This document shows, piece by piece, positions 6,334-44,060 of a DNA stretch of 61,229 nucleotides. Source of the DNA: an uncultured Clostridia bacterium (GTDB taxonomy: Bacteria; Bacillota; Clostridia; Oscillospirales; Acutalibacteraceae); assembly GCA_947170465.1 (NCBI GenBank), contig CAMVTS010000007.1:1-61229 (forward strand). Reading direction: 5' to 3'. The notes under the pieces are model-generated. The model did not search any database. It was given only the letters and a program-made list of their open reading frames with translations, and was not told the origin of the DNA. The position numbers and the translations under genes were made by a program. Within the stretch, counting starts at the first letter, position 1; each line of letters starts with the position of its first letter.

Positions 6334-6366
6334 AAGGGTTCGGATTTCCGAACCCTTAGTTTTTTA
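6334..6366. terminator. Bidirectional terminator between ilvB and the LRR-dockerin gene
   Basis: The 11-bp stem AAGGGTTCGGA / TCCGAACCCTT (6334-6357) is followed by AGTTTTTT. It separates two convergent genes. Confidence 0.8.
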
Positions 6367-7371
6367 CAATATGCCGTCGTCGTAGCCTGCGACGTACCGC
6401 TGAATCAGCGTGACGTCCTCTACGCTTACACGGTTGTCGTTGTTGACGTCGGCGAACGCCTGCGCAATCTGCTTGAAGTCGAGATACCCGGCGCAGTACA
6501 TCTGAATCTGCGTTGCGTCGGCGATATTCACGCTGCCGTCAAGGTTGGCGTCGCCGAATACATGCGCGTAGGTGTGATAATCCATGACGAAGTTCTCGTA
6601 GCAGTACTGAGCCGCGTAGGAATCCTCGATACACTGCACCTCCAATGTTGACTGTACCGACATGGGGTAGAGCGCGTAGGCGCCGATATTGCTGATGGCT
6701 TCGGGAATATACAGCTCCGTCATGCCGGCGTCGCCGCGAAACGCCGAAGCGCCGATGGTTTCAAGCGATTCCGGCAGGAATATCGTCTGCAGGGCGCTGG
6801 TTTCAAAGCAGCTTTCGCCAATGGCGGTCACGCCTTCGGGCACTGTCAGCGCCGTGATGCCGCTGTTGCGGAAGGAGGCTGTGCCGAGCCGCTTGACGTC
6901 AGACGGAAGCGTGACGGTCGCAAGCGCCGCGCAGTTCTGGAAAAGATAATCGCTGACCGATGTGATTTTCGTATCGGACAAATCCGCCGCCGTCAGACCG
7001 CTTTCGGCAAAGGCGCCCATATCTATCGCTGTGAGCGAGGACGAGAACTGCACGTTCTGCAGATTTTGACAGTCATAAAAGGCGTAGGAGCCGATATGGG
7101 CGTAGCTGTCGGGAATGCTGACGCTCGTCAGTCCGGTATGCGCGAAGCACCGGCTGGCAATGGAGGTCACCGGCAAATCGCCGAAGCTCTCCGGCAAGGT
7201 CAGCTCCGTGTCACTGCCAAGGTAGGCGTATAAGCCCCATTCGCCGTTGCTGTAGGTATACTGATAGGTGCCGTCGCTGACGGTCACCACCGTTCCTGCG
7301 GAAAAAGCAGAAGCAGACGTCACCACCAATGCAGCCGACAGAATGGCGGCTATTTTTTTGTGAAGCTTCAT
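6364..7371 (-). CDS. Secreted leucine-rich-repeat protein with C-terminal type I dockerin
   Basis: A 335-residue exported protein. Residues 1-26 are a signal peptide (lysines, hydrophobic core, cleavage near SAFSAG). Residues about 55-240 are BspA/TpLRR-type (LRR_5) repeats with the recurrent L-x-S-V-x-I-P-D pattern, as in LTSVSIPDSYAHIGSYAFYD. Residues about 270-335 form a two-segment dockerin with calcium-loop motifs DANLDGSVNIAD and DVNNDNRVSVED. Dockerins bind cohesins on scaffoldins, so this protein probably docks on a cellulosome/amylosome-type complex at the cell surface; no cohesin is in the window. A good promoter lies 40 bp upstream. The ligand of the LRR part is unknown. Confidence 0.88.
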   Translation of the reverse strand: MKLHKKIAAILSAALVVTSASAFSAGTVVTVSDGTYQYTYSNGEWGLYAYLGSDTELTLPESFGDLPVTSIASRCFAHTGLTSVSIPDSYAHIGSYAFYDCQNLQNVQFSSSLTAIDMGAFAESGLTAADLSDTKITSVSDYLFQNCAALATVTLPSDVKRLGTASFRNSGITALTVPEGVTAIGESCFETSALQTIFLPESLETIGASAFRGDAGMTELYIPEAISNIGAYALYPMSVQSTLEVQCIEDSYAAQYCYENFVMDYHTYAHVFGDANLDGSVNIADATQIQMYCAGYLDFKQIAQAFADVNNDNRVSVEDVTLIQRYVAGYDDGIL

Positions 7372-7571: not shown

Positions 7572-7612
7572 ATTAATATGTAGAGATTATAAACTGTAAA
7601 GGAGTGTCCGCG

Positions 7613-8428
7613 ATGGGAGTTTTAAAGAGGCTTGCCAAGAGCTTTTCCAGCGAGAAGATGTCTGCCAAAAGCCGCAAAAGACTGATTATCTTTATCGCCA
7701 TCATCACCTTGCTATCCATGACAACCTCCACCGTCGCATGGTTTACGATTAACACCTTCGCCGGTGTAGAAAAGCTGGATGTCCACATCAGCGTAGCGGC
7801 ACAGTTAAAGGTGTCAATGGAAGACCACGGCACGAACCTTGACCAGTATGTCAAGACGATTACCAACGAAATGATAGACACCTATTTGGCAAAGCAAAAT
7901 ACAAAGCTTGCAGATATTGTACTCGATCCGGTAACCACCTCCGACGGCGTTCGTTTTGTCAATCAGCGTAATGTTGAACGGCAGCCGAATCAAAAATCCT
8001 ATCTGGAATTTGAGTGCTATTTTATCGCAACAGAGGATATGTGGGTACATCTCACAACCGAAGCGGCAGAGAATATACCCGGGAGCGAAGGAACCAAGGT
8101 GACGTCCAGTTCACCGTCTCCGCAGAATGACGTTGTCAACTGTACGCGTGTTGACTTCACCACGGATTCCAACGGTACGGCTACCTTTGAGAACAACAAA
8201 GGCACACAGGTGACGCAACTGAACACCTTTGACCTGCCGTCCGGCGCAATGGTGTATTCTGACAGCACACGCCTGTTCCACCTCGATGAAATGACGCCGA
8301 AAAAAGTCACCGTCCGTATTTGGATTGAGGGCGAGGATCCCGAATGTGATGACGATGTTCAGCTTGCAGAGTTGACTGTAGCAATGAGTTTCATCGGTTG
8401 TGACGACAGCAATACCCCGATTGCATAA
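7613..8428 (+). CDS. TasA/CalY-like SipW-dependent exported protein (1)
   Basis: A 271-residue exported protein. After a basic N-terminus (SAKSRKRL) there is one hydrophobic segment (about 24-46) running into TVAWFTINTFAG. This [T/I]-aromatic-[A/C/S]-W-[F/I/Y] signature is typical of SipW-processed TasA/camelysin-type signal peptides. The mature part is predicted to be mainly beta-strand. Near the C-terminus is VRIWIEGEDPEC, a motif that recurs in most of the cluster's exported proteins. TasA-like proteins form surface fibres in Bacillus; fibre formation here is inferred. The ATG at 7613 is chosen over a GTG at 7604 because AAAGGAG lies 8 nt upstream of the ATG. It is the first gene of the cluster. 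Confidence 0.75.
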   Translation: MGVLKRLAKSFSSEKMSAKSRKRLIIFIAIITLLSMTTSTVAWFTINTFAGVEKLDVHISVAAQLKVSMEDHGTNLDQYVKTITNEMIDTYLAKQNTKLADIVLDPVTTSDGVRFVNQRNVERQPNQKSYLEFECYFIATEDMWVHLTTEAAENIPGSEGTKVTSSSPSPQNDVVNCTRVDFTTDSNGTATFENNKGTQVTQLNTFDLPSGAMVYSDSTRLFHLDEMTPKKVTVRIWIEGEDPECDDDVQLAELTVAMSFIGCDDSNTPIA

Positions 8429-8457
8429 GATAACAAATCGTCCTTGGAGTGATTGAA

Positions 8458-9360
8458 ATGTTCGGAAAAAAGAAAACAAAAAGTGAACAGCCCATAACTC
8501 CAGAGGAGTTAAGTCAGTTAAATGACAAGCAGACAGCTGACCCGACGATACGAAAATTCCACGTCACTACCGACTCCGCCAAGATTATGGCGCTTAAAAA
8601 GCGGCGCAGAATTCTCAGTATCATTATCGGCGGCGTCGCGACCATGCTGTTGATTCTGTTTTTGGTTTCGCTGCTGGTCACCAAATGGGGCGATTTGGTC
8701 ATCGAGATTGACCGTCCGGCAGTTGCCAAGGGTTTTACCCTCAGCGAGAGCGAGGACTTTGCCAGCAAGTCGGTATCTCTCAGCGCCAAGCAGGCGCTTG
8801 ACGTTACCAACATCACCTACAGTTGGCTGCCCACCGACCTCGACACCAGCAAGGACGGCGAGCACAACGGTGATAATTACGTCGCCTATACCTTCTATAT
8901 GCGCAACGACGGCGAAGAACAGATTGACTACATCACCACCCTCGACATCACCGGTGTCGCCAAGTCCGCGGACGAAGCGGTTCGCGTGATGATTTACAAG
9001 AACGGTGAGCCGAGCATTTACGCCAAGGGTCAGTACGACGACCGTGAACAGCCCGAGACCGACGCAACGCGCTTTGTAGACGACAAGATTGTCATGCAGA
9101 CCAAGTCCGAGGCGTTCAAGCCCGGCGACGTGGACAAATACACCGTGGTCGTCTGGATTGAGGGCAACGACCCTGAATGCGTTGACGATATCCGCGACGG
9201 CTACGTCCGTATGAGAATGCTGTTCAAGCTCGACGACCCCGACGCTACCCAGAGCCCGTTCGGCGATTATTACAACAACGGCGAGCTGGTCGAGGACACC
9301 AAGAACTACAACGAAGGTCAGGGAATCGGCACGGACGTGACGACAGCCCCGGCAAACTAA
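8458..9360 (+). CDS. Membrane-anchored TasA-like protein with cytoplasmic N-terminal tail
   Basis: A 300-residue protein with a different topology from its neighbours. A charged cytoplasmic tail of about 45 residues precedes a transmembrane helix (about 50-74, IIIGGVATMLLILFLVSLLV) with no obvious cleavage site or AWF signature. The external part ends with the same family motif, VVVWIEGNDPEC. It probably stays in the membrane and could anchor or nucleate fibres made by the neighbouring exported proteins (inference). The start is placed at the ATG of MFGKKK, 8 nt after GGAG; a GTG three codons earlier is less likely. It lies 29 nt after the preceding gene. Confidence 0.65.
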   Translation: MFGKKKTKSEQPITPEELSQLNDKQTADPTIRKFHVTTDSAKIMALKKRRRILSIIIGGVATMLLILFLVSLLVTKWGDLVIEIDRPAVAKGFTLSESEDFASKSVSLSAKQALDVTNITYSWLPTDLDTSKDGEHNGDNYVAYTFYMRNDGEEQIDYITTLDITGVAKSADEAVRVMIYKNGEPSIYAKGQYDDREQPETDATRFVDDKIVMQTKSEAFKPGDVDKYTVVVWIEGNDPECVDDIRDGYVRMRMLFKLDDPDATQSPFGDYYNNGELVEDTKNYNEGQGIGTDVTTAPAN

Positions 9361-9450
9361 CATTGGTATTAAGCGCGCAAGCGCTGATATAATCAAAATA
9401 TCCCTATGGTGTTTTAGGGACAAAAAATTATTTTTAGGAGGAATTTCTCA

Positions 9451-10302
9451 ATGAAAGCAAAATCAAGAAAGAGATTATTAATCTCGTCCGTAGCAATGCT
9501 GCTCGTAGCAATGCTCGCACTCGGAACCGCGACCTTCGCATGGTTTACAACTAGCCCTACTGCCAATGCAAGCGGTGTGATTTTAAAAGCAACCGCTTCA
9601 CAAGGTCTCAAAGTTTTAACAGAATCTCATAAGACTGCTGCACCTCAGGCAGAGTATCTGTCAAGTGATTATCTTAACTATGACAGTACTACACAAATTT
9701 CTTCTACGACTGCAAAATATTTGAACCCCGCTTCCTATGCTTTTACAGTTGGTTCTGCTCTTGGCACTCCTTTCAAAACAACTGCGGATAGCGACACTGC
9801 ATACAATGCTGACACATCTGCAGAAGTTGCACCTGCCACTGCTGGTTGGAGCGGTACTAACGATGTTTACGCTGAAAAGATTTACTGTAAATTAGTTGGC
9901 GCATCCTCATCTACTGACACAGCTGCTCTTTCACTTACTAGCGTTTCTATTTCAAATGTGACAGCTGAAGCGTATCCGATGATTAATTCTATGCGTGTTA
10001 TTATTACATATAACGGCGATGTAAAGGGCGCTTATGCATTACAGGCAGTAAACGGTGAAGTAACCTTATCGGCTGTCGGAACTCCGAATACTTACGAAAA
10101 TGCTACTAAGAGCACTGGCTCATTTACACAGTGGACAAGCGCTTCTAATGTTGCTCTCGGCAGCGTAGGAACTAGTGGAAATGATTACGTAGGTGTTCAT
10201 ATTTATCTTGATGGTGAAGATACAAACTGTAAATCTTCTAACATTAAGGTTGACAATCTGTTCAGCAACATTACCGTTAATCTTGCAATTCCCACCACTT
10301 AA
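9451..10302 (+). CDS. TasA/CalY-like SipW-dependent exported protein (2), candidate major fibre subunit
   Basis: A 283-residue protein with a textbook SipW-type signal: KAKSRKRLL, a hydrophobic core (about 9-28), then GTATFAWFTTSPTANAS with a likely cleavage after the ANA. The mature protein is Ser/Thr/Ala rich, low in charge, and carries VHIYLDGEDTNC near the C-terminus, a variant of the cluster motif. It has the strongest ribosome binding site of the cluster (TTAGGAGGAA), AT-richer codons than its neighbours, and lies directly before a SipW-type peptidase gene. These points suggest an abundant subunit matured by that enzyme. TasA-type amyloid-like fibre formation is an inference from the family. 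Confidence 0.78.
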   Translation: MKAKSRKRLLISSVAMLLVAMLALGTATFAWFTTSPTANASGVILKATASQGLKVLTESHKTAAPQAEYLSSDYLNYDSTTQISSTTAKYLNPASYAFTVGSALGTPFKTTADSDTAYNADTSAEVAPATAGWSGTNDVYAEKIYCKLVGASSSTDTAALSLTSVSISNVTAEAYPMINSMRVIITYNGDVKGAYALQAVNGEVTLSAVGTPNTYENATKSTGSFTQWTSASNVALGSVGTSGNDYVGVHIYLDGEDTNCKSSNIKVDNLFSNITVNLAIPTT

Positions 10303-10354
10303 TCTTTTAAGTCTTAAATATTTGCTATAATAATATGAAATGGAGACCCTCTGA

Positions 10355-11077
10355 ATGAAAGTAGCTAAAAAAATATTTAATGTATTTATTGATATTGTTA
10401 TTGTATTGATAATGATTGTTTCCGTCATTACTGTAACCTTATCAATTACGTCGAAATCATCGGGGGTCTCCAATATTTTTGGTATTGCTCCTATGAGTGT
10501 AGCTTCAAACTCCATGGCAGATACTATCAATCAGGGAGATTTGATTTTCGGAAAGATTGATTCCAACAGAACCGAACCCTATGAGGTAGGTGATATTGTA
10601 TCGTTCTATCAGGAAATTGAAGGGCAGAATCAAATCAATACGCACCGCATTATCGAAGTGGTAAATGACGGTGGCGTGGTTTATTACAGAACTCAGGGCG
10701 ATAACAAAAACACTAATCCCGATCCAGATCCGGAACTTAAATCGCAGGATATGATTCTTGCGAAATATACCGGCACCAAAATCCCGGGTATCGGCAATTT
10801 CTTCAGTTTCATCAGAACTCAGCTTGGATTCTTCCTCGTGATTCTGCTGCCGATGATTCTCTTCTTTGTTTATCAGGCGATTCGTGTGATTATGAACATC
10901 ATCGCCTACAACAAGGAGAAGGCTGCCGAGGAAGCAGCGGCGGCTGTGGCAAACTCTGAACTCACAGAGGAGCAGAAACAGCGCGCGATTGAAGAGTATC
11001 TTGCCAAGCAGAAAGCACAGGAAAGTGAAACCGCGGTACAAACACCTGCCGACGGTGAATCTTCCGACGCTGAGTAA
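10355..11077 (+). CDS. sipW: SipW-type signal peptidase I (first of three)
   Basis: A 240-residue membrane serine peptidase of the archaeal/ER-type (S26B) branch, which uses Ser-His-Asp rather than Ser-Lys. An N-terminal membrane helix (about 8-31) precedes the catalytic Ser in VASNSMAD (Ser53), the His in INTHRII (His97) and the GD motif in RTQGDNKNT (Asp116). A second membrane helix (about 148-175) is followed by a charged cytoplasmic tail of about 60 residues rich in Ala/Glu. SipW processes TasA-like precursors in Bacillus; the adjacent gene encodes just such a precursor. An extended -10 (TGCTATAAT, TATAAT at 10326-10331) may give it a secondary promoter. Confidence 0.88.
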   Translation: MKVAKKIFNVFIDIVIVLIMIVSVITVTLSITSKSSGVSNIFGIAPMSVASNSMADTINQGDLIFGKIDSNRTEPYEVGDIVSFYQEIEGQNQINTHRIIEVVNDGGVVYYRTQGDNKNTNPDPDPELKSQDMILAKYTGTKIPGIGNFFSFIRTQLGFFLVILLPMILFFVYQAIRVIMNIIAYNKEKAAEEAAAAVANSELTEEQKQRAIEEYLAKQKAQESETAVQTPADGESSDAE

Positions 11078-11136
11078 ACAAACAAAACAAATTTGTCCCT
11101 AATGCACGTAGGTGCAACTAACATTTGAACGGTCAT

Positions 11137-11240
11137 TCTTTCCGGCCGAAAGGTCGGTCGGAAAGATAACCGTGCCTTATCCAAACACAAGGGCTTTGCC
11201 CGATAAATTAGAGAGATTTCAGCCGTAAGGCTGTTGGTAG
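11137..11240 (+). promoter_or_regulatory. Structured leader before the McrB-like gene: two hairpins, the second terminator-like
   Basis: The 187-nt gap contains a long hairpin at 11137-11166 (TCTTTCCG / CGGAAAGA with an inner GCCG / CGGT stem) and a smaller CAGCC-GTAA-GGCTG hairpin at 11220-11233 followed by TTGGTAGATTTTTTT. The second could act as a partial terminator or attenuator and so lower expression of the ATPase genes relative to the fibre genes. No clear promoter was seen here. Confidence 0.45.
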
Positions 11241-11264
11241 ATTTTTTTAAGGAGACGATGAGCC

Positions 11265-12809
11265 GTGGATACAGTATTTGACTTTCTGTTTCAGTTTCTC
11301 GGCCAGTTTTTTGGCTCACTGTGGTCAATTATAACAGGCATTTTCAGCGGAATCGCTGGCATGTTCAACTTCCCGAAATATATCCAGATTATCAACGACT
11401 TTACCACGGAGCTCGGCGGTTTGGCATGGGTTATCGCAATTATCGCGATTATTCTGCTCGCCGCGCTGATGGGACTGATTGTCTGGCTCATTATCGTCGC
11501 CATAAAAAAGTTTATCAAGTCGCGCCGCAGCCGCAAGGACAACGCGTCGCTTGTCAAAGAAGTTCAGGCGCTCAACAAAGAGGTTATGCGCCTCAACCTC
11601 GAGAAGGACAAGATTCTCTCCATGAAGGTTTCTCAAATTGGTCTGAATCCCAACGAGATTGCCGAGCTTACCGGCGAGGAAATCGAAGCGCTCAACGCCG
11701 GCGGCGAAGAGGGCGACGAGGATACCGGCGGCATCCGCTTCCTCAAGCTTTGCCAGATCGACGAGGAATGGGCGGATTATCAGCCGCCTGTCTATGACAA
11801 CGACATCACCCTTCCGGAGTTCTGCGACCGCTTCCGTCTGTTCGCCTGCTCACGTCTGGGTCTGTTCTATGACATCAGCATGATTCGCCGTTTCGTGGCT
11901 GCTTTCGCTTCCACCAGACTGATTGTCTTACAGGGTATTTCCGGTACCGGTAAAACCTCACTTGCTTACGCCTTCGGTAAGTTCGTCTGCAATCCTTCCG
12001 TCATTACGCCGGTTCAGCCTTCCTGGCGTGACCGTTCCGAGCTGTTCGGCTACTTCAACGAATTTACCAAGAAATACAACGAAACCGAGTTGCTTCGCGC
12101 TATGTACGAAGCAAGATATAACGAAAACGTCTACCTGGTTATCCTCGATGAGATGAACATCGCGCGTGTTGAGTACTACTTCGCCGAGATGCTCTCTATT
12201 CTGGAAATGCCGAGACGCGAGGAATGGATTGTCGACCTCGTTCCCAGCCAGTGGAAGAACGACCCGAAGCTGCTTGACCACGGCAAATTCACCATTCCGC
12301 CAAACATGTGGTACTGCGGTACCATCAACAACGATGACTCGACCTTCGCCGTTACCGATAAGGTTTACGACCGTGCGATGCCGATTAACATCGACAACAA
12401 GGGCGTTGCCTTTGACGCACCCGACACACCGCCTGTTGTTATCAATTATCATCACTTTGAGGATATCCTCAACAAAGCAAAGGCGGACAATCCTGTTTCC
12501 GCTGACCTGCTCGATAAGCTCGCTTTGCTGGATGATTACATCATCAACCACTTCCGCGTAGCTTTCGGTAACCGTATTATGAAGCAGATTAAGGACTATG
12601 TTCCTGCTTATGTTGGCACCGGCGGAACCGAAATCGATGGTCTGGACTACATCCTCGCGCGTAAGGTACTGCGTAAGTTTGAGGCGCTGAACCTTTCCTA
12701 CATCCGCGACGAAATCGACGGCTTGATTGCCTACATGGACGAGCTTTTCGGCGAGGAGAATATGGGTGAGTGCAAGAGTTATCTGCTCATGCTCAAGAAA
12801 CTGGTATAA
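11265..12809 (+). CDS. Membrane-anchored McrB-like AAA+ ATPase
   Basis: A 514-residue AAA+ protein. Residues 1-36 are hydrophobic/amphipathic and 52-80 form a clear transmembrane helix, followed by a basic stop-transfer patch (KKFIKSRRSRK) and a short coiled coil (about 95-122). The ATPase domain has Walker A GISGTGKT (224-231), Walker B LVILDEMN (291-298), a sensor-1 Asn in GTINNDDST and a DR pair (369-370) as likely arginine finger. Together these are the McrB/MoxR-like pattern. McrB proteins are GTP/ATP motors that work with McrC. Here the N-terminus is a membrane anchor instead of a DNA-binding domain. The start is GTG, 10 nt after AAGGAG. It pairs with the DUF2357 gene and sits inside a surface-protein cluster. 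The family call is firm; its role is unknown. Confidence 0.85.
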   Translation: MDTVFDFLFQFLGQFFGSLWSIITGIFSGIAGMFNFPKYIQIINDFTTELGGLAWVIAIIAIILLAALMGLIVWLIIVAIKKFIKSRRSRKDNASLVKEVQALNKEVMRLNLEKDKILSMKVSQIGLNPNEIAELTGEEIEALNAGGEEGDEDTGGIRFLKLCQIDEEWADYQPPVYDNDITLPEFCDRFRLFACSRLGLFYDISMIRRFVAAFASTRLIVLQGISGTGKTSLAYAFGKFVCNPSVITPVQPSWRDRSELFGYFNEFTKKYNETELLRAMYEARYNENVYLVILDEMNIARVEYYFAEMLSILEMPRREEWIVDLVPSQWKNDPKLLDHGKFTIPPNMWYCGTINNDDSTFAVTDKVYDRAMPINIDNKGVAFDAPDTPPVVINYHHFEDILNKAKADNPVSADLLDKLALLDDYIINHFRVAFGNRIMKQIKDYVPAYVGTGGTEIDGLDYILARKVLRKFEALNLSYIRDEIDGLIAYMDELFGEENMGECKSYLLMLKKLV

Positions 12810-12897
12810 TCTCACATAGTATGCTTGCGGGATGTCAAAAAGTCTTTTCGGCATCCCAAAAGGCGTTTATTCAAAAGATAATTGAGGTGAAGTTGTT

Positions 12898-15417
12898 TTG
12901 GAAAATTTTGATCAGTATTATCGTTCCTATAAATACATGCAGAAGCACCTCGCGTCTGACTTTACCGCAAATTATCTTCACTCCAACATGGAGGACGCCG
13001 ACAACGGCAAGGACGTGCTCTCCGGTAAGCTCCATGAAAAGGTTATCGACATGGAATGGGTTATCGCGATTGAGGATACCCTTCCTTACATTGAAAAAGC
13101 AATCGACGAACAGCGCCGCTTCATCATTGAAAACAATGAGGTTTATCGTATTGACAAGGCGAAAATTATTAACAAGGATTCAGTCAAGCACCTGATTCAG
13201 CACACCAACTTTATCGACAGCATTGACGAGCACGGTAAGGTTACGCCGAATAAGGTTCTCACCATTGAACGTGAGGACAGCTTTGAAACCTACGAGAACC
13301 GCTTCCTCATTACGCTGATTGAAACCGCGCTGAACTTTGTTGCGGATAAATATCGCAAGATGGTGGACGCGCCCACAGATACCTACAATAAGGTGGAAAT
13401 GGAGCGCGATTTGGTGCTGAATAACCAGCGCATCACCTTCAGAACAGAATATTCCAACGAGGTTAAGGACGCACAGGACGCGTTGCTCGACGTCAAGGAT
13501 TACGAGAAGCTCTCGGATTTTGACCGTGTACGCCGTATCCGTGAAAAATTAAATTCTTTCCTCAATACCGATATGATGATTGCGCTCAAGAAGTGCATTC
13601 GCGTCAAGCCGCCCATCAACCGCACCAACCTGATGACCAAGAACCCGAACTACAAGGCGTCGCTGGATTTGTTCACCTATCTTGGCGCCTACAATAAGCC
13701 GGGTTATGAAATCATCGGAAAAGAGTTTTCCGGTAAGATGGATAAGGACGTGCAGGAAGCAGTCTATATGTCTCAGGGTTTCCAGCATTTCATGATTAGT
13801 ATCGCTACGAACCCGGCGCTCAAGAGAATGTTGGAGGAGCGCTATCAGGAATCAAAATCCGGCCGCGGCAAGGCAGGCGACTCCGAGTTGGCGGAAATGA
13901 TTGAAAAAGTCCGCCAGGAAGAAATGAAAATCCGCTTGCAGGAAATCCGCGAGCGCGAGAAAATAATCCGTGACCAGAAATCTGAAATCGCTGCGCTGAA
14001 ACGCGAAATAGAAAAACGTGACCGCACGATTGAATCCCTCAAGAGCACTATCAAACAGCTTGAGGAGCAGGTCAAAGAACTCAAGAACGAACTGCAGAAG
14101 GTCAAGGCAGAGCTTATCAAGGCGAAGGAACGTATCGCTGAGCTGGAAGCCAAGGTTGCCGAACTTGAAGCGCGTATCGCCGAGCTGGAAGCCATGGTGG
14201 CGGCGCTCACCGCACAGGTTGCGGAGCTTGAAGCGCAGAAGGCGGCGCTCGAAGCCAAGGTTGCCGAGCTGGAGCAGGTTGTTGAAGAACAAAAAGCTAA
14301 AATTGCCGAGCAGGAGCGCACGATTATCAGTCTCCGTCAGCGTATTGAAGAACTGGAAGTCTACGTCGCCGAACTGGAAAAGACAAAGGCGCAGTTAGAG
14401 CAGAAAGTCAGCGCACTTGAAGCTGAGAACGCCGAGCAGAAAACTACCATCGCCACACACGAAGCGACAATTGCAACGCAGCTGGCGGCTATCGCCGGGC
14501 TGGAAACCGAAATTGCCGGCGCGAAGTCGCAGCTTGCCGACCTCAACAGCACGCTTTCACAGCGTGAAGCCACTATTGTCGAGCAGACCGAAAAAATCAA
14601 CGGACTCACCGGTAATGTGGCACAGCTTACTTCTGATTTGGCAGCCGAAAAGCAGGCGCGCCGTGACGAGGTAGAAGCGCTTAACAAGAAATTTGAAGAT
14701 GAAAAGGCTGCTATGCTCGCGGCGCAGAACGCCGAGCGTGAACGCCTTGAAAAAGCGCATCAGGCAGCGCTTGATAAGCTCGATAAACAGAAAGAAAACG
14801 AAAAGGCGAAAATCCAGAAGGATGCTGACAGCCGCGTGAAGTCGGTTCAGAAAGAAGCCGACAGCCGCGTCAAGACAGTCCAGAAGGACGCCGAAAAGAA
14901 GGCGCAGACGCAAATCCGCGAAGCCAACAAAAAGGCGAGCTCCGCAGCTGCCATGTACAAGAAGGAACTCAAAATCGACCGTGGCAACGACGGACTCTTC
15001 AAGTTTGACTTCCCGGTCGGCGCACTGGGCGTGCAGGGCATGAAGGCGGTTTCGCTCGCCGCAAACGGCGATGACATGAGCCGTCTGCCGAACAGCAGAA
15101 ATTTGCAGTGTCTCTTCATTGTCAGCGACGGCAAGAAGGTCACCCTCTATTCCGGCTCACACAACAAGCTGCAGGTCATTCAGAATTTCCGCAACACCAC
15201 AGACATCAACGTATGCCGGGAGGCGGTGGCAGAAAATCTGCAAAACGCCGATACCTCCTGCGCGTACCTCACTTATAAATCCGTAGACAAAAATCTCGTC
15301 AGCAATTTCGCTGCCTACCTCAAATCCGCGGCGAAATTTGCGGCAACCCAGACATTCCACAACAAATCGCAGAAAAGCGGTAAATCCGCGTTAGGTATTT
15401 ACTTCTACAGAGGTTAA
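12898..15417 (+). CDS. McrC-like DUF2357 protein with very long coiled coil and no visible nuclease
   Basis: An 839-residue protein. The N-terminal about 300 residues match the DUF2357/McrC-type region, including the hallmark YENRFLITLIE (about 140-150). About residues 320-690 are an almost unbroken heptad-rich coiled coil built of repeats such as IAELEAKVAELEA, continuing into a Lys/Asp-rich stretch. The last about 140 residues form a separate globular domain ending SALGIYFYRG. I see no PD-(D/E)XK nuclease motif, which McrC and many DUF2357 proteins carry. The start is TTG with GAGGTGA 7 nt upstream. It follows the McrB-like gene by 88 nt and ends 2 nt before a TasA-like gene. It is probably the partner of the ATPase, bridging it to another structure (inference). 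Confidence 0.8.
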   Translation: MENFDQYYRSYKYMQKHLASDFTANYLHSNMEDADNGKDVLSGKLHEKVIDMEWVIAIEDTLPYIEKAIDEQRRFIIENNEVYRIDKAKIINKDSVKHLIQHTNFIDSIDEHGKVTPNKVLTIEREDSFETYENRFLITLIETALNFVADKYRKMVDAPTDTYNKVEMERDLVLNNQRITFRTEYSNEVKDAQDALLDVKDYEKLSDFDRVRRIREKLNSFLNTDMMIALKKCIRVKPPINRTNLMTKNPNYKASLDLFTYLGAYNKPGYEIIGKEFSGKMDKDVQEAVYMSQGFQHFMISIATNPALKRMLEERYQESKSGRGKAGDSELAEMIEKVRQEEMKIRLQEIREREKIIRDQKSEIAALKREIEKRDRTIESLKSTIKQLEEQVKELKNELQKVKAELIKAKERIAELEAKVAELEARIAELEAMVAALTAQVAELEAQKAALEAKVAELEQVVEEQKAKIAEQERTIISLRQRIEELEVYVAELEKTKAQLEQKVSALEAENAEQKTTIATHEATIATQLAAIAGLETEIAGAKSQLADLNSTLSQREATIVEQTEKINGLTGNVAQLTSDLAAEKQARRDEVEALNKKFEDEKAAMLAAQNAERERLEKAHQAALDKLDKQKENEKAKIQKDADSRVKSVQKEADSRVKTVQKDAEKKAQTQIREANKKASSAAAMYKKELKIDRGNDGLFKFDFPVGALGVQGMKAVSLAANGDDMSRLPNSRNLQCLFIVSDGKKVTLYSGSHNKLQVIQNFRNTTDINVCREAVAENLQNADTSCAYLTYKSVDKNLVSNFAAYLKSAAKFAATQTFHNKSQKSGKSALGIYFYRG

Positions 15418-15419
15418 AT

Positions 15420-16757
15420 ATGAGCAGGAAAACAGGCAGCGGCAGGCGCTTCATGATTGCCAAAAACTTAATAATGATGCTTGCGACGCTGGCTGCGATT
15501 CTTGTTGCGATTTTCGCGTGGTTTGGTTCAAACAACGAAGCAAAAGCCAGTGGCATCTCCATGAAAACCAAAACTCCGGACAAGATTGAACTGGCGGTTC
15601 CAGATAAAGTGGAGGTTGATGGCAAGATTGTGGATTCTTTCCCTCTTGACAATCTGAAATGGAAAACCTCATTAGATTTTTCTTTGTCCGGCTATCTGAA
15701 AAACATGGTAAAAGATGTCACCAGTGACGGTAAGCAGTTTGCGGTTCCGAACTTTGCCGCGGCGAATAACCTGGCAGAGGGCAGAAGGGTAATCGCAGAC
15801 GACGTATGGGTAGATGGTTTATCCAGCAAAGAGGCACTGACTAACGACAAACCAAATGATGACGATCAGTATCATTACGTTTCGCTGGATTTTTATGTAC
15901 GTTCGCTGCAGCCTAATCCGGTGCGTATCACAGAGGATTCGTATCTTGCCGCGGGCTCTGAGATTGGCATCAAAGACGATTTAACGGATGGCGGCAAGGA
16001 TAGTGCAAGATTACTGAAAGGCAGTAATGTTTACCGCCCCAGTTCCTATGGCGCGTCTAAAAGCGATGATTCGTTTTCAGCCGATGCTATAATCGGCGCC
16101 ATGCGCGTGTCGCTTGTCGGGGCGCAGGTTGATTCGGTTCAGACAACTTCTCATGACACAATTGATTCCGTTACGCAGGAACAGGTGACCAGAGATGTCA
16201 CCACCGAGACCGCCTACAACGGCGGTACCTGGGCTAAGAAGGCTGCGTTGAAGCTTCTTTGGCTGCCGCGTCCGGATATTTATCTGCAGACGGACAACAA
16301 TCAGGATCAGTGGAAACTGTATACTGACATTAAACCGAACAGCGAACTGGCCAGTAAAACCTATATTCATTCTTTCTATTTGGGACAAACTCAACCAGAC
16401 GGAACTGCTTCTGTCAAAAAGGGACTGACCTATACACAGTATAGTGATGCAAATGTAAAAACAATAGACGGCACTGCTGACCACGATGGTGTCTATAAAG
16501 TGAGTAAAATCGACATTAATGACAAAGAGCTGGGTAAGACAAAAGGTTACTATCCGACTTTTGGACAGCAGCAGGAAATAGCGAGTGGTTCAACACCTTC
16601 CCAGATTACGTTTGTGGAAAGTGCAACTAATCCGACAACAACGGGTTATTACGTTTATAAATTCACATTGAATCTGTGGATTGAAGGCGAGGACGCTGAG
16701 GCTCGTCGTTCAATGAACACCGGCATATTCAATCTGATGCTTGGCTTTGAGGCATAA
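15420..16757 (+). CDS. TasA/CalY-like SipW-dependent exported protein (3)
   Basis: A 445-residue exported protein. The basic N-terminus is followed by a hydrophobic segment (about 14-32) and IFAWFGSNNEAKAS, a SipW-type signal with likely cleavage after the AKA. The large mature region is rich in Asp, Lys and Thr and shows no enzyme motif. The C-terminus carries LNLWIEGEDAEARR followed by a terminal beta-strand, as in the other cluster proteins but without the Cys. The gene starts 2 nt after the DUF2357 gene, which makes co-translation likely and ties the ATPase pair physically to the exported proteins. Confidence 0.75.
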   Translation: MSRKTGSGRRFMIAKNLIMMLATLAAILVAIFAWFGSNNEAKASGISMKTKTPDKIELAVPDKVEVDGKIVDSFPLDNLKWKTSLDFSLSGYLKNMVKDVTSDGKQFAVPNFAAANNLAEGRRVIADDVWVDGLSSKEALTNDKPNDDDQYHYVSLDFYVRSLQPNPVRITEDSYLAAGSEIGIKDDLTDGGKDSARLLKGSNVYRPSSYGASKSDDSFSADAIIGAMRVSLVGAQVDSVQTTSHDTIDSVTQEQVTRDVTTETAYNGGTWAKKAALKLLWLPRPDIYLQTDNNQDQWKLYTDIKPNSELASKTYIHSFYLGQTQPDGTASVKKGLTYTQYSDANVKTIDGTADHDGVYKVSKIDINDKELGKTKGYYPTFGQQQEIASGSTPSQITFVESATNPTTTGYYVYKFTLNLWIEGEDAEARRSMNTGIFNLMLGFEA

Positions 16758-16799
16758 CGCGGTCAGATACAACAAAATACGATGAAAAGAGGTGAAATT

Positions 16800-18074
16800 A
16801 TGGGCAAATTCAGAAGCAGATTCTCTGCAATGGTTTTTAATGCAGTGGCTTCGCGAAAAACGAGCAAGAAACAACTCGCCTTGTCTGTAATTTCACTTTG
16901 TCTTGCGGCAGTGGTTCTGATCACCGGAACCTACTGCTGGTTCGCGCTGTCTAAGAGTAAGGCGGAAGGTAATAACATCAACCTTGTTGTCGGAAACGGT
17001 TTGCGTGTAAACGACTTGGGTGAGGCTTCACAGAAGTTTAACGACAAATCCTATCTGCAGCCTGCCTCCTCGGTAGACGGCAGAAACTTGTTTTTTCCAA
17101 CAGACGGCACCGATTTTTCAAAGGAAACTGCGTCAATGACATTCCGCAGTGCCAACGCCGGTGACCGTAATTACAATTACGTTCAGCTGGACTTCAACCT
17201 GACCGCTGAAGCAAACTACACCAGTATTTATCTCGATAAAAACACCAGTCTGAAAATTGAAGTTCCCAATCAGAGCGAGTTCGCCAGCCCGGATGATTAC
17301 GAGGCTTATAAGACGAAGGCGGAGAGAGCTGAAAAAGCACTGCGTATGGCGATTTATTACGACGGCATGGATAAGCCGGTCGTTTTCACCTCACAAATGA
17401 ACCCTTGGCCGCTTGATGCGGTGAAGGATATTGACCGTACAACCGGTCGTTTTCTGGAAAGCGCCAACCAGGTTGCCTATCCGTTTAAGGATTATTCCTA
17501 CGGAAAAAATCAACTTGCTGTTCTCAACCAGGGCGAAACCAGACCATTTTCACTGATTATCTGGCTGGAAGGAACCGATACAGAAAACTGTATCAGCGAC
17601 GCAGTAATGCTTAAACAGCTGGTACTGAACCTGACGTTTACTACCTCCTGGGACAACACCGAAGAGATTACATTTGAGGATGCAACAGAGGGATACAGCG
17701 TACGCCAGCTTCTGAAAGATTATCCTGCTTATTCCCTGGTGCTGGATTATGACGATTCCGTACACAATGTCAACCACATGAGATTTACCATGCAGAAGGC
17801 AGAAGCAACACAGGATAATTATCAGTGGAAGTGTAATCTTCCCGGTATTGCTCATAACAACATCCGTTTCCTTGTACTGGACGGTTCAGGAAATATAGTT
17901 GAGGAATGGAGCAAAACAACGGGAGGCGCGTCAACACTGAACCGTGGCACAGCGACCAAGTATACGGCGGATACGTTAGCGCTCAAAGACTCATGCGGAC
18001 ACTGGTATGACGGTGATATTGAACAGCATGGCGAGGGTCACGACAGCGGTGTCCCGGATGACGATGATTGGTAA
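16800..18074 (+). CDS. TasA/CalY-like exported protein (4) with acidic C-terminal extension
   Basis: A 424-residue exported protein. The signal runs from a basic N-terminus through a hydrophobic core (about 28-46) to GTYCWFALSKSKAEG. The family motif appears as LIIWLEGTDTENC near residue 250. Unlike shorter members it continues for about 150 more residues, including DYDDSVHNVNHMRFTM and an acidic tail ending DDDDW. The extension may be a second domain or an interaction region; I recognise no family in it. The ATG at 16800 follows AAGAGGTG with good spacing; an upstream in-frame ATG at 16782 precedes that site and is unlikely. Confidence 0.72.
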   Translation: MGKFRSRFSAMVFNAVASRKTSKKQLALSVISLCLAAVVLITGTYCWFALSKSKAEGNNINLVVGNGLRVNDLGEASQKFNDKSYLQPASSVDGRNLFFPTDGTDFSKETASMTFRSANAGDRNYNYVQLDFNLTAEANYTSIYLDKNTSLKIEVPNQSEFASPDDYEAYKTKAERAEKALRMAIYYDGMDKPVVFTSQMNPWPLDAVKDIDRTTGRFLESANQVAYPFKDYSYGKNQLAVLNQGETRPFSLIIWLEGTDTENCISDAVMLKQLVLNLTFTTSWDNTEEITFEDATEGYSVRQLLKDYPAYSLVLDYDDSVHNVNHMRFTMQKAEATQDNYQWKCNLPGIAHNNIRFLVLDGSGNIVEEWSKTTGGASTLNRGTATKYTADTLALKDSCGHWYDGDIEQHGEGHDSGVPDDDDW

Positions 18075-18095
18075 TTAAGGAAAGGAGGCGCTGCT

Positions 18096-20678
18096 ATGAA
18101 AAAAAAGAATAAAAAAAATGTTCTGCTGTCAGTAGCGGCGTTTATCCTTGTGGCTGTCACGGTTGTAGGTGTGACGTATAGCTGGATTGACGATGTAAAG
18201 CTGGTACAATTCCAGAACGCTGACGTCAGCGACGGCGCTCCGCTGAAAACCGGCGTCGATATCAATGCCAACGTGAATATCACATCAGCAGATACTTCAG
18301 TCAATCTTGGTAATCTGCTGGGGTTGAATGAATACACGTATTCTTACTCTGATGGCGATAATCAGAAAACCCACATCCGCTATGACGGCAGCAATGACGA
18401 CAGTAAAAAGCCAAATTGGAATACAATCAACCAGAACAAAGGTTACTTCTATGAATCGGGAGACATGCATTTGTCGCCTTGCTACAGCGATGGCGAGACC
18501 TTCTATTTCCCGACCAGTCAGGAGAACGTTTACCGCGAAGGCAACAAGGACGACGAAAACGTCAACTACATCAGCTTTACGGTTAAGGTGAGCTCGCCGG
18601 AGCAGAATGTTGATTTGTGGTTTGAGGAAGAACCGTCAATCTGCTATCTGGACAGCAACGATACTTTGCAGTCGATAGAGCAAGCGCGTTTTGCGATTAG
18701 TATTGACGGTAAATCCCACATATATTCTCCTACCGGAGAAGCACTGACCTGTAACAACGATCTGAACGACACGACAGATGTACAGGGCGTCAGAAAGACA
18801 ACTGAGTATACCTATAACCATTCCGACAATGACAATGCCCGCGGTACAAACAGCAACGTCCTCTTTTCTATCAAAAAGGGCGGTACTGTTACCATGAATG
18901 TCAAAATCTGGCTTGAAGGCGGCTATGATACCAATATTACCGCTTCCAATATCAACTTCAAGCTGATTTCTTCGCGCAACATGACACGTGAGTTTGTTAT
19001 TGTTGACAGAACTACATCAAACTCCAAAAAGAGCTGGTTGGATGACGATGGTGCTACCATGTTTATGACGTTTCCCTCGGTTTTGGATATGTATACACGC
19101 ACATTGATGGGAAACGATTATAATTCAGAGGAAGAAGATCCGGCTGATTACTGGGACGACTTACGAAATGATATACGCCATCGTTTCCCGGATGCACCTT
19201 TTTACGAATTAAAAAAGGATGCAGCAACGTCAACCGCTATGGGATTTGATGTTCTGTCTCCCTATATAGGCAGTACAAAGGTGGAAATCCCCTATTATTT
19301 CAACGGTGAAGAAATGATTATTTTCCGTTGTACAAATCAGGGGTGGAATACTTATGCGACAAATAATGACAATCAGATTGTGACCCCCAAGCGAAGTGAC
19401 TACAAGGTTTATGCGTGGAACTGGTGGCAGACGACTATTCCAAACGCTTATTCCACCGGCGTCTATACACTCTATGGTGGTTCTCACGATCAATACGCAG
19501 CTCCTATTTTCACAGACGATAAAAAAGCAAATACCGATTTGGGTTACGGAACATGGGGCGATGTTATCACTATTACAGTAGAACAATCCTACAATGGAGT
19601 GGATTGGGCGAAGAAAAATAGTGATAACAACAACGTATACATCCGAGATTATACGGATGCAGATACGACAGGGGAAACTTATATTCACTCCATGTACTGG
19701 GATACCAACAAATGGACAGCAACGATTCCAAAGTCATCTGTTTTATTGCAGTTTAATTACACAGAGAACCAAAGTATTCTAGGTTGTTACGGTTATAATT
19801 CCTACAACAGCACAAACCCGCAGCAACGACCGGAAGGGTCATTAAAATACACCTTTACTGTTAAGCGTGACAATGATAGTAATACAAACGGTATGGGATA
19901 TTGGGAGGGTGCCAACCATATTTATATGATTAAAAACGGGGTTTTTGCGACGGCATCTACACTGAAGGCGCATATTTTCTATAAGCATAAAACAGATAAT
20001 AACGCCGATTTAACGGTTGTCAACGCCGCATTCCCAGGTGCTGACCTGAGTGTGGTGGAAAACGTAGACTATAAGGGAAAGAGTGTATACCAGTCGCAGG
20101 AGCTTGACGCGTCCCCCGGGCTCTATCCAGACAGAAGGGTCGAAGGATATAAAAGCGATTATATGGACACACAAGTCGTATTTAATAATGGCAGTGATTC
20201 AACGAAGACCAATGACTTACTCGTTTTCCCGGGTTGCTATTACAACCCGGAAGGAAATGAATGGTTAGGCAGCCTCCACGGCAAGGGAAGAGCCGCTGCT
20301 ATAACAGATACCGACGACGGCACCGACGATAGTGGCGGCGGAGATTCGTCTGCAGACCATGGCGATATGACTGGCTATACGACGGAGACGAATTTTGTTT
20401 TCAAAATCAGTGGTAAGGAATATAAGGCGTATTCCAATGGTACGAATTATCGTGTTAAACTGCCGCTCAAGGTTGGCGACAACTGGACAACGGTTTTGGA
20501 AGGCAGTACTAACTACGGTCTGGAAGAGGCAAGCAAGTACTATACTGCTCCCGGCGGATCGGTAAATATTAACAGCGCACACAGAAATAACTTCTCGTTC
20601 AGAGCGTTTGCAGCGGGTAACTATGTCATTCAGTTTACCAAGAGCGGAGATACGCTGAGCCTGACGAGCTTGAGCTGA
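18096..20678 (+). CDS. Large TasA-like exported protein (5)
   Basis: An 860-residue exported protein, the longest of the family here. A lysine-rich start (MKKKNKKN) and hydrophobic core (about 9-24) lead to VTYSWIDD. The first about 290 residues resemble the other members and end with VKIWLEGGYDTN. The remaining about 570 residues form a large aromatic-, Asn- and Asp-rich region, with a stretch around VYAWNWWQTTIPNAY that recalls carbohydrate-binding modules, a TDTDDGTDDSGGGD linker near residue 740, and a final beta-rich domain ending LSLTSLS. It could be a fibre tip or an adhesive component; that is inference. An AAAGGAGG site precedes the ATG. It lies 21 nt after the previous gene. Confidence 0.68.
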   Translation: MKKKNKKNVLLSVAAFILVAVTVVGVTYSWIDDVKLVQFQNADVSDGAPLKTGVDINANVNITSADTSVNLGNLLGLNEYTYSYSDGDNQKTHIRYDGSNDDSKKPNWNTINQNKGYFYESGDMHLSPCYSDGETFYFPTSQENVYREGNKDDENVNYISFTVKVSSPEQNVDLWFEEEPSICYLDSNDTLQSIEQARFAISIDGKSHIYSPTGEALTCNNDLNDTTDVQGVRKTTEYTYNHSDNDNARGTNSNVLFSIKKGGTVTMNVKIWLEGGYDTNITASNINFKLISSRNMTREFVIVDRTTSNSKKSWLDDDGATMFMTFPSVLDMYTRTLMGNDYNSEEEDPADYWDDLRNDIRHRFPDAPFYELKKDAATSTAMGFDVLSPYIGSTKVEIPYYFNGEEMIIFRCTNQGWNTYATNNDNQIVTPKRSDYKVYAWNWWQTTIPNAYSTGVYTLYGGSHDQYAAPIFTDDKKANTDLGYGTWGDVITITVEQSYNGVDWAKKNSDNNNVYIRDYTDADTTGETYIHSMYWDTNKWTATIPKSSVLLQFNYTENQSILGCYGYNSYNSTNPQQRPEGSLKYTFTVKRDNDSNTNGMGYWEGANHIYMIKNGVFATASTLKAHIFYKHKTDNNADLTVVNAAFPGADLSVVENVDYKGKSVYQSQELDASPGLYPDRRVEGYKSDYMDTQVVFNNGSDSTKTNDLLVFPGCYYNPEGNEWLGSLHGKGRAAAITDTDDGTDDSGGGDSSADHGDMTGYTTETNFVFKISGKEYKAYSNGTNYRVKLPLKVGDNWTTVLEGSTNYGLEEASKYYTAPGGSVNINSAHRNNFSFRAFAAGNYVIQFTKSGDTLSLTSLS

Positions 20679-20704
20679 AATACAGATAAAAAGGTGGTGA
20701 TACC

Positions 20705-22015
20705 ATGAAACTGAATAAAAAACTGGCGGTGGCGATACTCGCGCTCGTTGTAGGAATTACATCATTTATTCCGTCGACGTTTTCATGGTATGACCATGAC
20801 GACACGCTTTCCGGTGTGAAGATGGGGTACAGCCGGGAGAATCTTCCTGTTTCTTCCGGTGAAGCAAGCAACCTGCACATGACCACCAAAAAATACCGTA
20901 TGGACGGTAAAAAGGTGTTCTATGATGATAAGGGCAACAAGGAGTACGCGAAAACGAACTACGACGGAACAGGAACAGAGCTTCCTCCCATCAATACAGA
21001 CTCGGTAGCTCCCGATACCACTCAGTACTATGGCACAACTTTCACGAACTATAACAGCGCACCGGCATATGTAAACTTGTACCTCAAGGATTTCTCCAAT
21101 AATCCAAATAATTACATTGGCACAACTGCGCCGAGCTTGACGCACAAGGGTTTATCATCAACTGTTCATCTGAAAAACCGCAATCAGGTTCGTGTATACT
21201 GTCAGTTTTTTGCCGCCAACGACTGGAAAGAAGACGGCGCGAAACGTTATCTTGTATATAAGGTAAAGGGAGACGACACTTTTCATTACAGCGAAATCAC
21301 ACAACAGACACCGACAAAGATTACAGTCAAAGAAGGTAACGCAGATGTTGCCAAAGATACCTATTATGCGGATTTGCCGGATCATACTACCGAGTTTTTC
21401 TTTGCAACAGACGGAAAAAAATCTGGCTTTGTCGGAAGCGAGGGTGTCTTTTCCAGCGTAACCAATCCGTGGTACAGAAGCAATACGATTACCAACATTC
21501 AGCCGGGCGTATGCTATCGCCTTACCGGTGCGTCAGATGATACGACGTGGTTTGCGGCGCATACAACGGTTGACGTACCGAACGGCATCAGCATTATGAC
21601 CAGCTTCGATACGCTTACGATCAGTGGCGGTCAGAGTGCATACGTTACGTTGACAGGCGGCACTAACTTTACCGGTGTCAGCGCATCATACGCGTGTACC
21701 GGAGATAATCTTTCGGTCAACGCCAATACCGGTTATGTCACTGCGTCTGCCGGATTTTCAAGCGGCACCATTACCACGACTGTTACAGGCGGTCTGGGAG
21801 ATATAACAACTTTTGAGACACAGGTTTCCAATCCCGAAACATTGAAATCTGTGACAGTTGCGATGAATGTTGAGGTTCCCGGAGCCACACCGGATCCGGA
21901 TGATGACAAGAAAATCATTCCCGGAAAAACAGAGATTGTTTGGTATATCGCCAATGAACAGACAGGGGCTTCTTCGGGGGAAGCAGCGTTTACTGCGATT
22001 TATTACACCAAATAA
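20705..22015 (+). CDS. TasA-like exported protein (6), with Ig-like region
   Basis: A 436-residue exported protein. The signal (MKLNKKLAVAILALVV...STFSWYDHD) has the SipW-type aromatic signature but a less clear cleavage site. Residues about 295-385 look like a bacterial Ig-like domain (TISGGQSAYVTLTGGTNFTGVSASYAC). The C-terminus (KTEIVWYIANEQTG...AIYYTK) is a diverged form of the family's terminal strand; the WxEGxD motif is lost. The gene ends 3 nt before the second SipW-type peptidase gene, so the two are tightly coupled. Confidence 0.65.
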   Translation: MKLNKKLAVAILALVVGITSFIPSTFSWYDHDDTLSGVKMGYSRENLPVSSGEASNLHMTTKKYRMDGKKVFYDDKGNKEYAKTNYDGTGTELPPINTDSVAPDTTQYYGTTFTNYNSAPAYVNLYLKDFSNNPNNYIGTTAPSLTHKGLSSTVHLKNRNQVRVYCQFFAANDWKEDGAKRYLVYKVKGDDTFHYSEITQQTPTKITVKEGNADVAKDTYYADLPDHTTEFFFATDGKKSGFVGSEGVFSSVTNPWYRSNTITNIQPGVCYRLTGASDDTTWFAAHTTVDVPNGISIMTSFDTLTISGGQSAYVTLTGGTNFTGVSASYACTGDNLSVNANTGYVTASAGFSSGTITTTVTGGLGDITTFETQVSNPETLKSVTVAMNVEVPGATPDPDDDKKIIPGKTEIVWYIANEQTGASSGEAAFTAIYYTK

Positions 22016-22018
22016 ACG

Positions 22019-22579
22019 ATGAAAGAAAGAAACTTACAGATTATGCGCCGCGTGAAGAATATCGCTTTGATAGCGATAATCGCGGCGCTCGCTGTTGTCA
22101 TGGCGTTTACGGTGATTTCGCGCATGATAGGTATGCCGCCGACGATATTTGGATTGACGATGTACCGCGTCAGCTCCGGAAGCATGGAACCGGCGTTAGC
22201 AGTCGGGGACATCATTATTGTGCAGGATTGTGGCGGAAACACAGTCAAAGAAAATGACATTGTTTCCTATCTGTCCGATTCCGGAGAGACGACAGGGCAA
22301 ATTGTCACACACCGGGTAGTCAGGGCGCCGTACCAAAAAGGCGACGCGACATATCTGGTGACAAAGGGCGACGCCAATTCAGCCGAGGATCGCCCTATAT
22401 TGGTAGCACAAGTAAAGGGCAAAATGCTGTGTAAACTGCCGTTTTTGAAATGGCTGTTTGACATCTTTTCAACACCTTGGGGCATGCTGGCGCTGATTGC
22501 GCTGGTGCTTTTGGCTTTTTCCGGTGAAATTATCCAGCTGATAAAAACCCTTCGCGGTAACGAAAAACCGAATAACTAA
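22019..22579 (+). CDS. sipW: SipW-type signal peptidase I (second of three)
   Basis: A 186-residue S26B-type signal peptidase. It has an N-terminal membrane helix (about 14-36), Ser55 in VSSGSMEPAL, His98 in IVTHRVV and Asp118 in TKGDANSAED, giving the Ser-His-Asp set of SipW/ER-type enzymes. A C-terminal helix (about 152-172) is followed by a short tail. It is closer in motifs to the third copy than to the first, which has SNSM and an alanine-rich tail. It is the last gene of the cluster; a terminator follows immediately. Confidence 0.88.
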   Translation: MKERNLQIMRRVKNIALIAIIAALAVVMAFTVISRMIGMPPTIFGLTMYRVSSGSMEPALAVGDIIIVQDCGGNTVKENDIVSYLSDSGETTGQIVTHRVVRAPYQKGDATYLVTKGDANSAEDRPILVAQVKGKMLCKLPFLKWLFDIFSTPWGMLALIALVLLAFSGEIIQLIKTLRGNEKPNN

Positions 22580-22582
22580 GTT

Positions 22583-22615
22583 AGCGCGCCCTTGTGGCGC
22601 GCTGTTGTTTTCTTT
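22583..22615 (+). terminator. Intrinsic terminator ending the surface-fibre cluster
   Basis: The GC-rich stem AGCGCGCC / GGCGCGCT (22583-22603) with loop CTTGT is followed by GTTGTTTTCTTT, 4 nt after the peptidase stop codon. Confidence 0.8.
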
Positions 22616-22704: not shown

Positions 22705-22733
22705 TTGATAAAAAATATCTTTTATGATAAAAT
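22705..22733 (+). promoter_or_regulatory. Sigma-A promoter for the giant secreted protein
   Basis: TTGATA (22705-22710), 17 nt spacer, TAAAAT (22728-22733), with a leader of about 85 nt and GGAGG before the start codon. It gives the giant gene its own transcription start. Confidence 0.65.
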
Positions 22734-43988: not shown

Positions 43989-44060
43989 GTTGTATCCTCC
44001 TTGAAGCATTATTTATGAAAATCGCAGTCATTCTGCGACTTTCTTGTTTTAATATACCAT

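Follow-up and report, generated by a model that had tools for sequence, protein, structure and literature searches.

What is a relative of the restriction nucleoside triphosphatase (NTPase) McrB doing in the middle of a clostridial gene cluster for surface-fibre proteins? The question is raised by contig CAMVTS010000007.1 (assembly GCA_947170465.1) of an uncultured gut Clostridia bacterium from the Acutalibacteraceae and the Ruminococcus group, of which we analysed positions 1 to 61,229 of the forward strand, here called the window. Eleven genes form one run on the + strand at 7604-22579, with intergenic gaps of 2 to 187 bp, in the order p1, p2, p3, SipA, McrB-like NTPase, McrC-like protein, p4, p5, p6, p7 and SipB. 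The original prediction had described seven divergent TasA-like fibre proteins encoded in one direction with short gaps; all seven genes lie in the same place and on the same strand, but the inventory was incomplete, as the run also holds two SipW genes, the McrB-like NTPase and an McrC/DUF2357-like coiled-coil protein. The identity of the locus as a CoCoPALM-type system (Bell et al., eLife 2024, PMC11090510) is well supported. With slightly better than even confidence, we further favour a reading in which this system builds a surface fibre, namely a donor-strand pilus of SipW-processed subunits whose membrane base, p2, is served by the cytosolic NTPase, which may act as its motor.

The McrB-like AAA+ NTPase (11265..12809, 514 aa) has E. 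coli McrB as its nearest solved chain (E 1.5e-8) and contains Walker A, Walker B and an NxD motif that reads NNDD in the window protein; Walker A and the NxDD motif (GTxNxDDS) are present in 79/79 homologues. A single N-terminal transmembrane helix (residues 59-77, predicted N-out) has its positive side toward the AAA+ domain in all 79 homologues and is followed by a short coiled-coil-like region, with a weak FtsL-type match (E 0.009 over residues 57-110). This membrane and coiled-coil region makes up the N-terminal part, and no modified-base-binding specificity domain occurs among the Pfam or NCBIfam matches. The McrC-like protein (12898..15417, 839 aa) joins a DUF2357 (PF09823) N-domain to a long coiled coil, with coiled-coil matches over residues 335-580. 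DUF2357 was found in 7/7 members of the family and its YENR motif in 77/77, most aligned homologues stop after the coiled coil, and the DUF2357 profile had no significant match in the PDB. In domain-family searches the window protein matched no PD-(D/E)xK nuclease family, which led us to reject a plain McrBC or type IV restriction system and makes it unlikely that the pair cuts nucleic acid. As a separate observation, a restriction-endonuclease-like DUF559 gene lies between the NTPase and McrC-like genes of one relative (L041, 5405-5770), and a similar 126-aa open reading frame stands alone at 58-438 of the window.

How constant is the association of this pair with fibre genes? Scanning genomes with the NTPase, we kept 80 loci out of 558 relatives, which are metagenome-assembled genomes labelled Ruminococcus sp. 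and uncultured Clostridia. SipW, an McrC-like protein and a membrane-exported WxEG protein were each found in 75 of these loci and all three in 66; many of the exceptions are short contigs. The nearest recognised neighbours of the NTPase are SipW before it and McrC after it in 60/79 cases. In an even sample of 243 Clostridia genomes, a strong McrB match (at least 500 bits) was present in 10, and in each of the 10 a SipW gene lies on that contig, in most cases no more than a few kilobases away. Against a background of 58 SipW genomes among the 243, the hypergeometric probability of 10/10 is 3.2e-7, a value to be read with the caveat that related genomes are not independent. Weaker McrB matches (at most 120 bits) had no SipW among the matches listed on their contigs. 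The p2 family occurs in precisely the 10 strong-McrB genomes and in no other of the 243, and the p1 family in the same 10 plus one marginal match elsewhere.

Within the genus, identity ranges from 66 to 87% for the NTPase, 35 to 60% for p2, 23 to 65% for p1 and 21 to 49% for p4, suggesting that the machine genes are conserved and the fibre subunits variable. The smallest loci (L132 and L129, from Christensenellaceae and a Candidatus Ornithoclostridium) retain p2, NTPase, SipW and McrC. Genes for PF05635 (23S rRNA-intervening-sequence protein, a four-helix bundle) also recur between the fibre genes of relatives, at differing positions (L042 2326-2688 and 4729-5073; L056 16695-17036; L041 11217-11612).

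These linkage data bear on the possibility that the pair is a defence module related to type IV restriction that shares the locus, with a barrier or sensing role for the fibre proteins while the NTPase kills or blocks invading nucleic acid. McrBC ancestry would fit such a role, as would the PADLOC candidate defence family PDC-M26A, which matches the NTPase (11265-12809) at E 3.4e-42, and the sister CoCoNuT systems, which are predicted defence systems (PMC11090510). However, the McrC-like protein lacks a detected nuclease domain, SipW and WxEG proteins are constant alongside the NTPase, the neighbours are housekeeping genes, and the system is present in 16/23 sampled relatives of the genus. Full-length homologues were found neither among 72,556 plasmids nor among 50,697 phages, which also speaks against a mobile element. 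We consider a defence function distinctly unlikely, and tools that annotate defence genes automatically may mislead at these loci.

If the locus is a fibre system, are its seven fibre-type proteins related? Most had been said to share a W-[IL]-E-G-x-D-type motif, and W[IL]EG is indeed present in five of them: p1 (7604..8428) reads WIEGEDPEC, p2 (8449..9360, 303 aa) WIEGNDPEC, p4 (15420..16757, 445 aa) WIEGED close to its C-terminus, p5 (16782..18074, 430 aa) WLEGTD at 261, and p6 (18096..20678, 860 aa) WLEG at 272. When the seven proteins were shuffled 5,000 times, the motif never appeared in more than two of them. The generalisation does not extend to p3 (9451..10302, 283 aa), which has the variant YLDGEDTNC, or to p7 (20705..22015, 436 aa), in which no W[IL]EG-type motif was found. 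Across its family p3 has the consensus VYVWxEGxDxxC, from which the window protein departs. In homologue alignments, the W, G, D and C of W-x-x-G-x-D-x-x-C are invariant across 47 p1 proteins, and W-x-E-G-x-D-x-x-C is invariant across 39 p2 proteins with identity down to 23%. Pairwise profile-profile comparison of p1-p6 with hhalign gave probabilities of mostly 95-99.9% (weakest: p2-p4 91%, p2-p6 78%), compared to at most 7.4% for the negative controls McrB, McrC and SipW, while p7 was tied to the others through its signal region only. Six of the seven proteins thus belong to one family with a common domain, and p7 shares their export route. Both p5 and p6 bear C-terminal extensions beyond the motif; in p6, WLEG closes the TasA-like N-domain and about 580 further residues follow.

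The export signals are consistent with SipW processing. In all six exported proteins the hydrophobic region closes with an A/C/S-W-[FIY] site (AWF in p1, p3 and p4, extended to AWFT in p3; CWF in p5; SWI in p6; SWY in p7), bearing out the claim of a common aromatic AWF-type signal. The division into six exported proteins and one anchored protein of 271 to 860 residues also stands, with the qualification that p1 is 274 aa long from GTG 7604 and 271 aa from the alternative ATG 7613. An AWF-type site ends the hydrophobic stretch in 57/60 p1, 49/49 p3 and 41/42 p4 homologues, and the clostridial PF12389 proteins examined bear the identical AWFT. TasA, a SipW substrate, likewise has an aromatic residue just after the cut (PMC10269814). 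The NCBIfam model of the SipW-cognate signal matches just 7/40 p3 homologues, weakly. Two peptidases are encoded in the run itself: SipA (10355..11077, 240 aa), a SipW-type (endoplasmic reticulum-type, Ser/His) signal peptidase (NF046067, E 1.7e-32), and SipB (22019..22579, 186 aa), a second SipW-type enzyme. Only one further SipW gene was found in the genome, at 32758-33471.

To what extent, then, are these proteins TasA-like? Their membership of the TasA/CalY family is not supported, since the PF12389 (TasA/camelysin) profile matched none of p1-p7 and nothing genome-wide at E 1; it was also not among the matches listed for the 47 p1 homologues. When the p1 and p3 families were searched against the PDB as sequence profiles, no match appeared even at E 10. 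AlphaFold (AF2) models of the mature chains are beta-rich and confident for both p1 (predicted local distance difference test, pLDDT, 90.3; predicted template modelling score, pTM, 0.88) and p3 (pLDDT 90.6, pTM 0.87), and we compared their folds against 350,542 PDB chains. The best match of p3 is the TasA-like Pyrobaculum bundling pilus (AbpA, 7ueg; E 3.4e-4, probability 0.97) and its second-best is the TasA fibre (E 0.022, probability 0.47; template modelling (TM) score about 0.27). The best match of p1 is the Sulfolobus donor-strand thread 7pnb (Saci_0406; E 7.8e-3, probability 0.80), and the TasA fibre is absent from its top 50. Structure prediction for these two proteins thus points to donor-strand fibre proteins as nearest solved folds, but the global TM-scores to TasA and thread structures are low (0.26-0.36) and permit nothing firmer. 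The opening residues of both mature models are disordered, as would be expected of a free donor strand.

We therefore regard p1 and p3 as probably TasA-like by fold, at a distance, and the exported proteins as TasA-like by their predicted export signal. The term is fair for fold and export route and not for family membership, because PF12389 is unmatched while the nearest folds are those of donor-strand fibre proteins. To this extent the seven divergent TasA-like proteins of the original prediction survive: p1-p6 form one family, AWF-type export holds and the p1 and p3 folds probably agree at a distance, whereas membership of the TasA family does not. One alignment is best seen as a lead: p2 aligns weakly but colinearly with clostridial PF12389 proteins (probability 34%), placing WIEGNDPEC on a GxxTxNxYQG loop. 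Mutual exclusion between this system and PF12389 proteins was set aside as uninformative; the overlap is 0/10, with PF12389 in 18/243 genomes, but chance expects just 0.7.

The same data could describe seven separate surface adhesins or coat proteins that have a common export signal and beta-sandwich domain and are not fibre subunits. The long variable C-terminal parts of p5 and p6, the relation of p7 by signal alone and the low TM-scores to known filaments agree with this idea. It sits poorly with the fold matches, since the top match of p1 and the top two of p3 are filament subunits, and with the presence of dedicated SipW peptidases, an enzyme type already seen in filament operons. We regard it as very improbable.

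The anchored protein p2 is where we would look for a connection between fibre and NTPase. It has no A-aromatic-aromatic cleavage site, a cytosolic tail of about 54 residues and one transmembrane helix at 55-73. Its homologues have one membrane helix and a cytosolic tail with a median of 52 residues; rule-based prediction places them N-in in 64/67 cases, and the cleavage site is missing in 63/67. Judged by this tail, single helix, orientation and missing site, p2 would be the natural link from the cytosolic NTPase to the outside fibre. Our assignment of roles is guesswork from anatomy: p3, which adjoins SipA and has the best TasA-like model, as candidate major subunit; p1 as a second core subunit; p2 as base; and p4-p6 as minor subunits with variable extensions, of which p6 is the likeliest adhesive tip.

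In the mechanism we propose, p1 and p3-p7 would exit via Sec and be cut by the SipW-type peptidases at the A-W-F-type site. The freed, extended N-terminus would then slot into the groove of the next subunit, as the fold neighbours suggest for donor-strand assembly. p2 would stay uncleaved and membrane-held, with its fibre domain outside and its basic tail inside, forming a base that starts and holds the fibre. The N-terminal helix of the NTPase would fix it to the membrane and leave its AAA+ domain on the cytosolic side, and by analogy with McrC the DUF2357/coiled-coil partner may stimulate it. Rather than cutting nucleic acid, the pair probably exerts control over the p2-SipW base, where it would switch or power the start of assembly, the order of subunits or their anchoring, while p4-p6 and the long C-terminal extensions would be variable, probably adhesive outer parts. 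From the observed co-occurrence, rule-based topology and domain content, we infer that the NTPase contacts p2 physically and energises or gates assembly. More tentatively, the locus may represent a class of monoderm pilus whose SipW-processed subunits undergo donor-strand assembly that is energised or gated by a restriction NTPase turned to new use, McrB, together with its activator, a nuclease-less McrC, both bound to the base subunit in the membrane; we hold this to be less likely than not.

Several points weigh against this account. Direct evidence for contact of the NTPase with the fibre, SipW or p2 is lacking, and because loci linked to McrB supplied the profiles for p1 and p2, joint detection is favoured. 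The fibre model has no explanation for p7 or for the C-terminal portions of p5 and p6, and the absent PF12389 match together with the low TM-scores leaves donor-strand assembly short of proof. In addition, an NTPase is not needed in principle, since the TasA and BsaA fibres are formed with none (PMC9674648, PMC7395162). The fibre or matrix could accordingly self-assemble as in Bacillus, with McrB/McrC merely positioning the secretion site or sensing the state of the envelope and being dispensable for assembly. The FtsB-like transmembrane helix and coiled coil of the NTPase would suit a scaffold role, and SipW occurs without this McrB in 48/58 SipW genomes. Two genomes of the same genus (G005 and G021) also have SipW where no McrB-like NTPase was found, indicating that partial or different SipW systems exist there. 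Self-assembly is less easily reconciled with the distribution of the WxEGxDxxC p2 family, which among the 243 genomes was found in the 10 that carry the NTPase and nowhere else, a pattern suggesting a tighter need, and with the conservation of Walker A and NxD in 79/79 homologues, owing to which nucleotide turnover probably matters. We consider it rather unlikely and retain the NTPase-served pilus as our preferred reading.

The run ends at a strong terminator-like stem-loop (22582..22604, +; 9 pairs, 7 of them G-C), which fits the right border originally given for the cluster. Beyond a promoter-like site at 22705-22733 (consensus match only), a gene at 22823-32680 (+) encodes a secreted protein of 3285 residues. 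It contains five repeats of the Flg_new_2 (InlB B-like) type and one of the Flg_new type, and it matches the starch-binding module CBM26 below threshold (E 5.8e-4); the third SipW gene (32758-33471) is next. This protein may be a starch-directed adhesin and possibly forms a second unit with the third SipW; in relatives it lies outside the conserved core. Shortly after the third SipW gene, at 33857-35626 (+), lies the gene for an ECF sigma factor whose long fused C-terminal region gave MucB/RseB- and LolA-like matches, a possible envelope-stress regulator. The window also encodes a secreted alpha-amylase with CBM26 (37196-39451, +) and a pair of dockerin-bearing leucine-rich repeat proteins of the BspA type (6364-7371 and 39696-44009, both -). 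These surroundings resemble an amylosome or cellulosome, as in starch-degrading ruminococci.

Donor-strand filaments are known from Gram-negative bacteria, archaea and Bacillus; in Gram-positives we know of no energy source for their assembly. A widespread gut and rumen gene set now ties such fibres to an McrBC-derived NTPase that has apparently departed from nucleic-acid restriction. If the proposed mechanism is right, a filament type hitherto believed to assemble without a motor would have one in the cytosol, and the mechanism would explain the purpose of CoCoPALM systems as a restriction NTPase turned to cell-surface work. The fixed gene set of p2, SipW, McrB and McrC makes the idea testable, and the pairing of a constant machine with variable fibre genes suggests that gut clostridia change their surface structures quickly.

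How does the locus compare with known systems? CoCoPALM was described as an NxD GTPase fused to an FtsB-like transmembrane and coiled-coil part, with a coiled-coil McrC and a signal peptidase nearby, in one short passage that postpones fuller description; the main text is silent on SipW, TasA, pilin, fibre and cargo (PMC11090510). A literature search without most subscription journals found no later paper using the term for these systems. The window locus shares an NxD-clade McrB-like domain (NNDD/GTxNxDDS, 79/79), placed by motif and nearest structure; a fused transmembrane and coiled-coil region that is FtsB-like in layout; an McrC homologue with DUF2357 and coiled coil and without a detected nuclease; and an adjoining signal peptidase, SipW-type in 75/80 loci and on the same contig in 10/10 class-level genomes. 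Compared to the published description, what is added is the cargo, the WxEGxDxxC subunit family, whose anchored member was found in precisely the sampled genomes that have the NTPase.

The TasA/TapA/SipW system of Bacillus subtilis and CalY/TasA of B. cereus share the SipW-type peptidase, the aromatic SipW-type signal and beta-sandwich subunits, but here there is no PF12389 match among the seven proteins, there are seven proteins instead of one or two, and an anchored base, two SipW genes and the NTPase with its coiled-coil partner are present. The archaeal bundling pili (AbpA, 7ueg) and threads (Saci_0406, 7pnb), donor-strand filaments called TasA-like or analogous (PMC9674648, PMC9715654), are the best fold neighbours of p3 and p1, yet sequence identity is 8-13%, they are archaeal, and an McrB-like NTPase is not described there. 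The sipW-bsaABCRSD operon of Clostridium perfringens likewise combines SipW, in a clostridium, with a secreted protein that forms filaments and with accessory proteins that are also secreted; in contrast, it is described without an NTPase and under two-component regulation, and BsaA polymerises alone (PMC7395162). SipW/TasA fibres and CoCoPALM are thus already known kinds, and the cargo family of a CoCoPALM-type system is now identified. The McrB/McrC pair that accompanies the fibre family in a constant gene order, both absent from the original prediction, makes this system distinct from known TasA operons.

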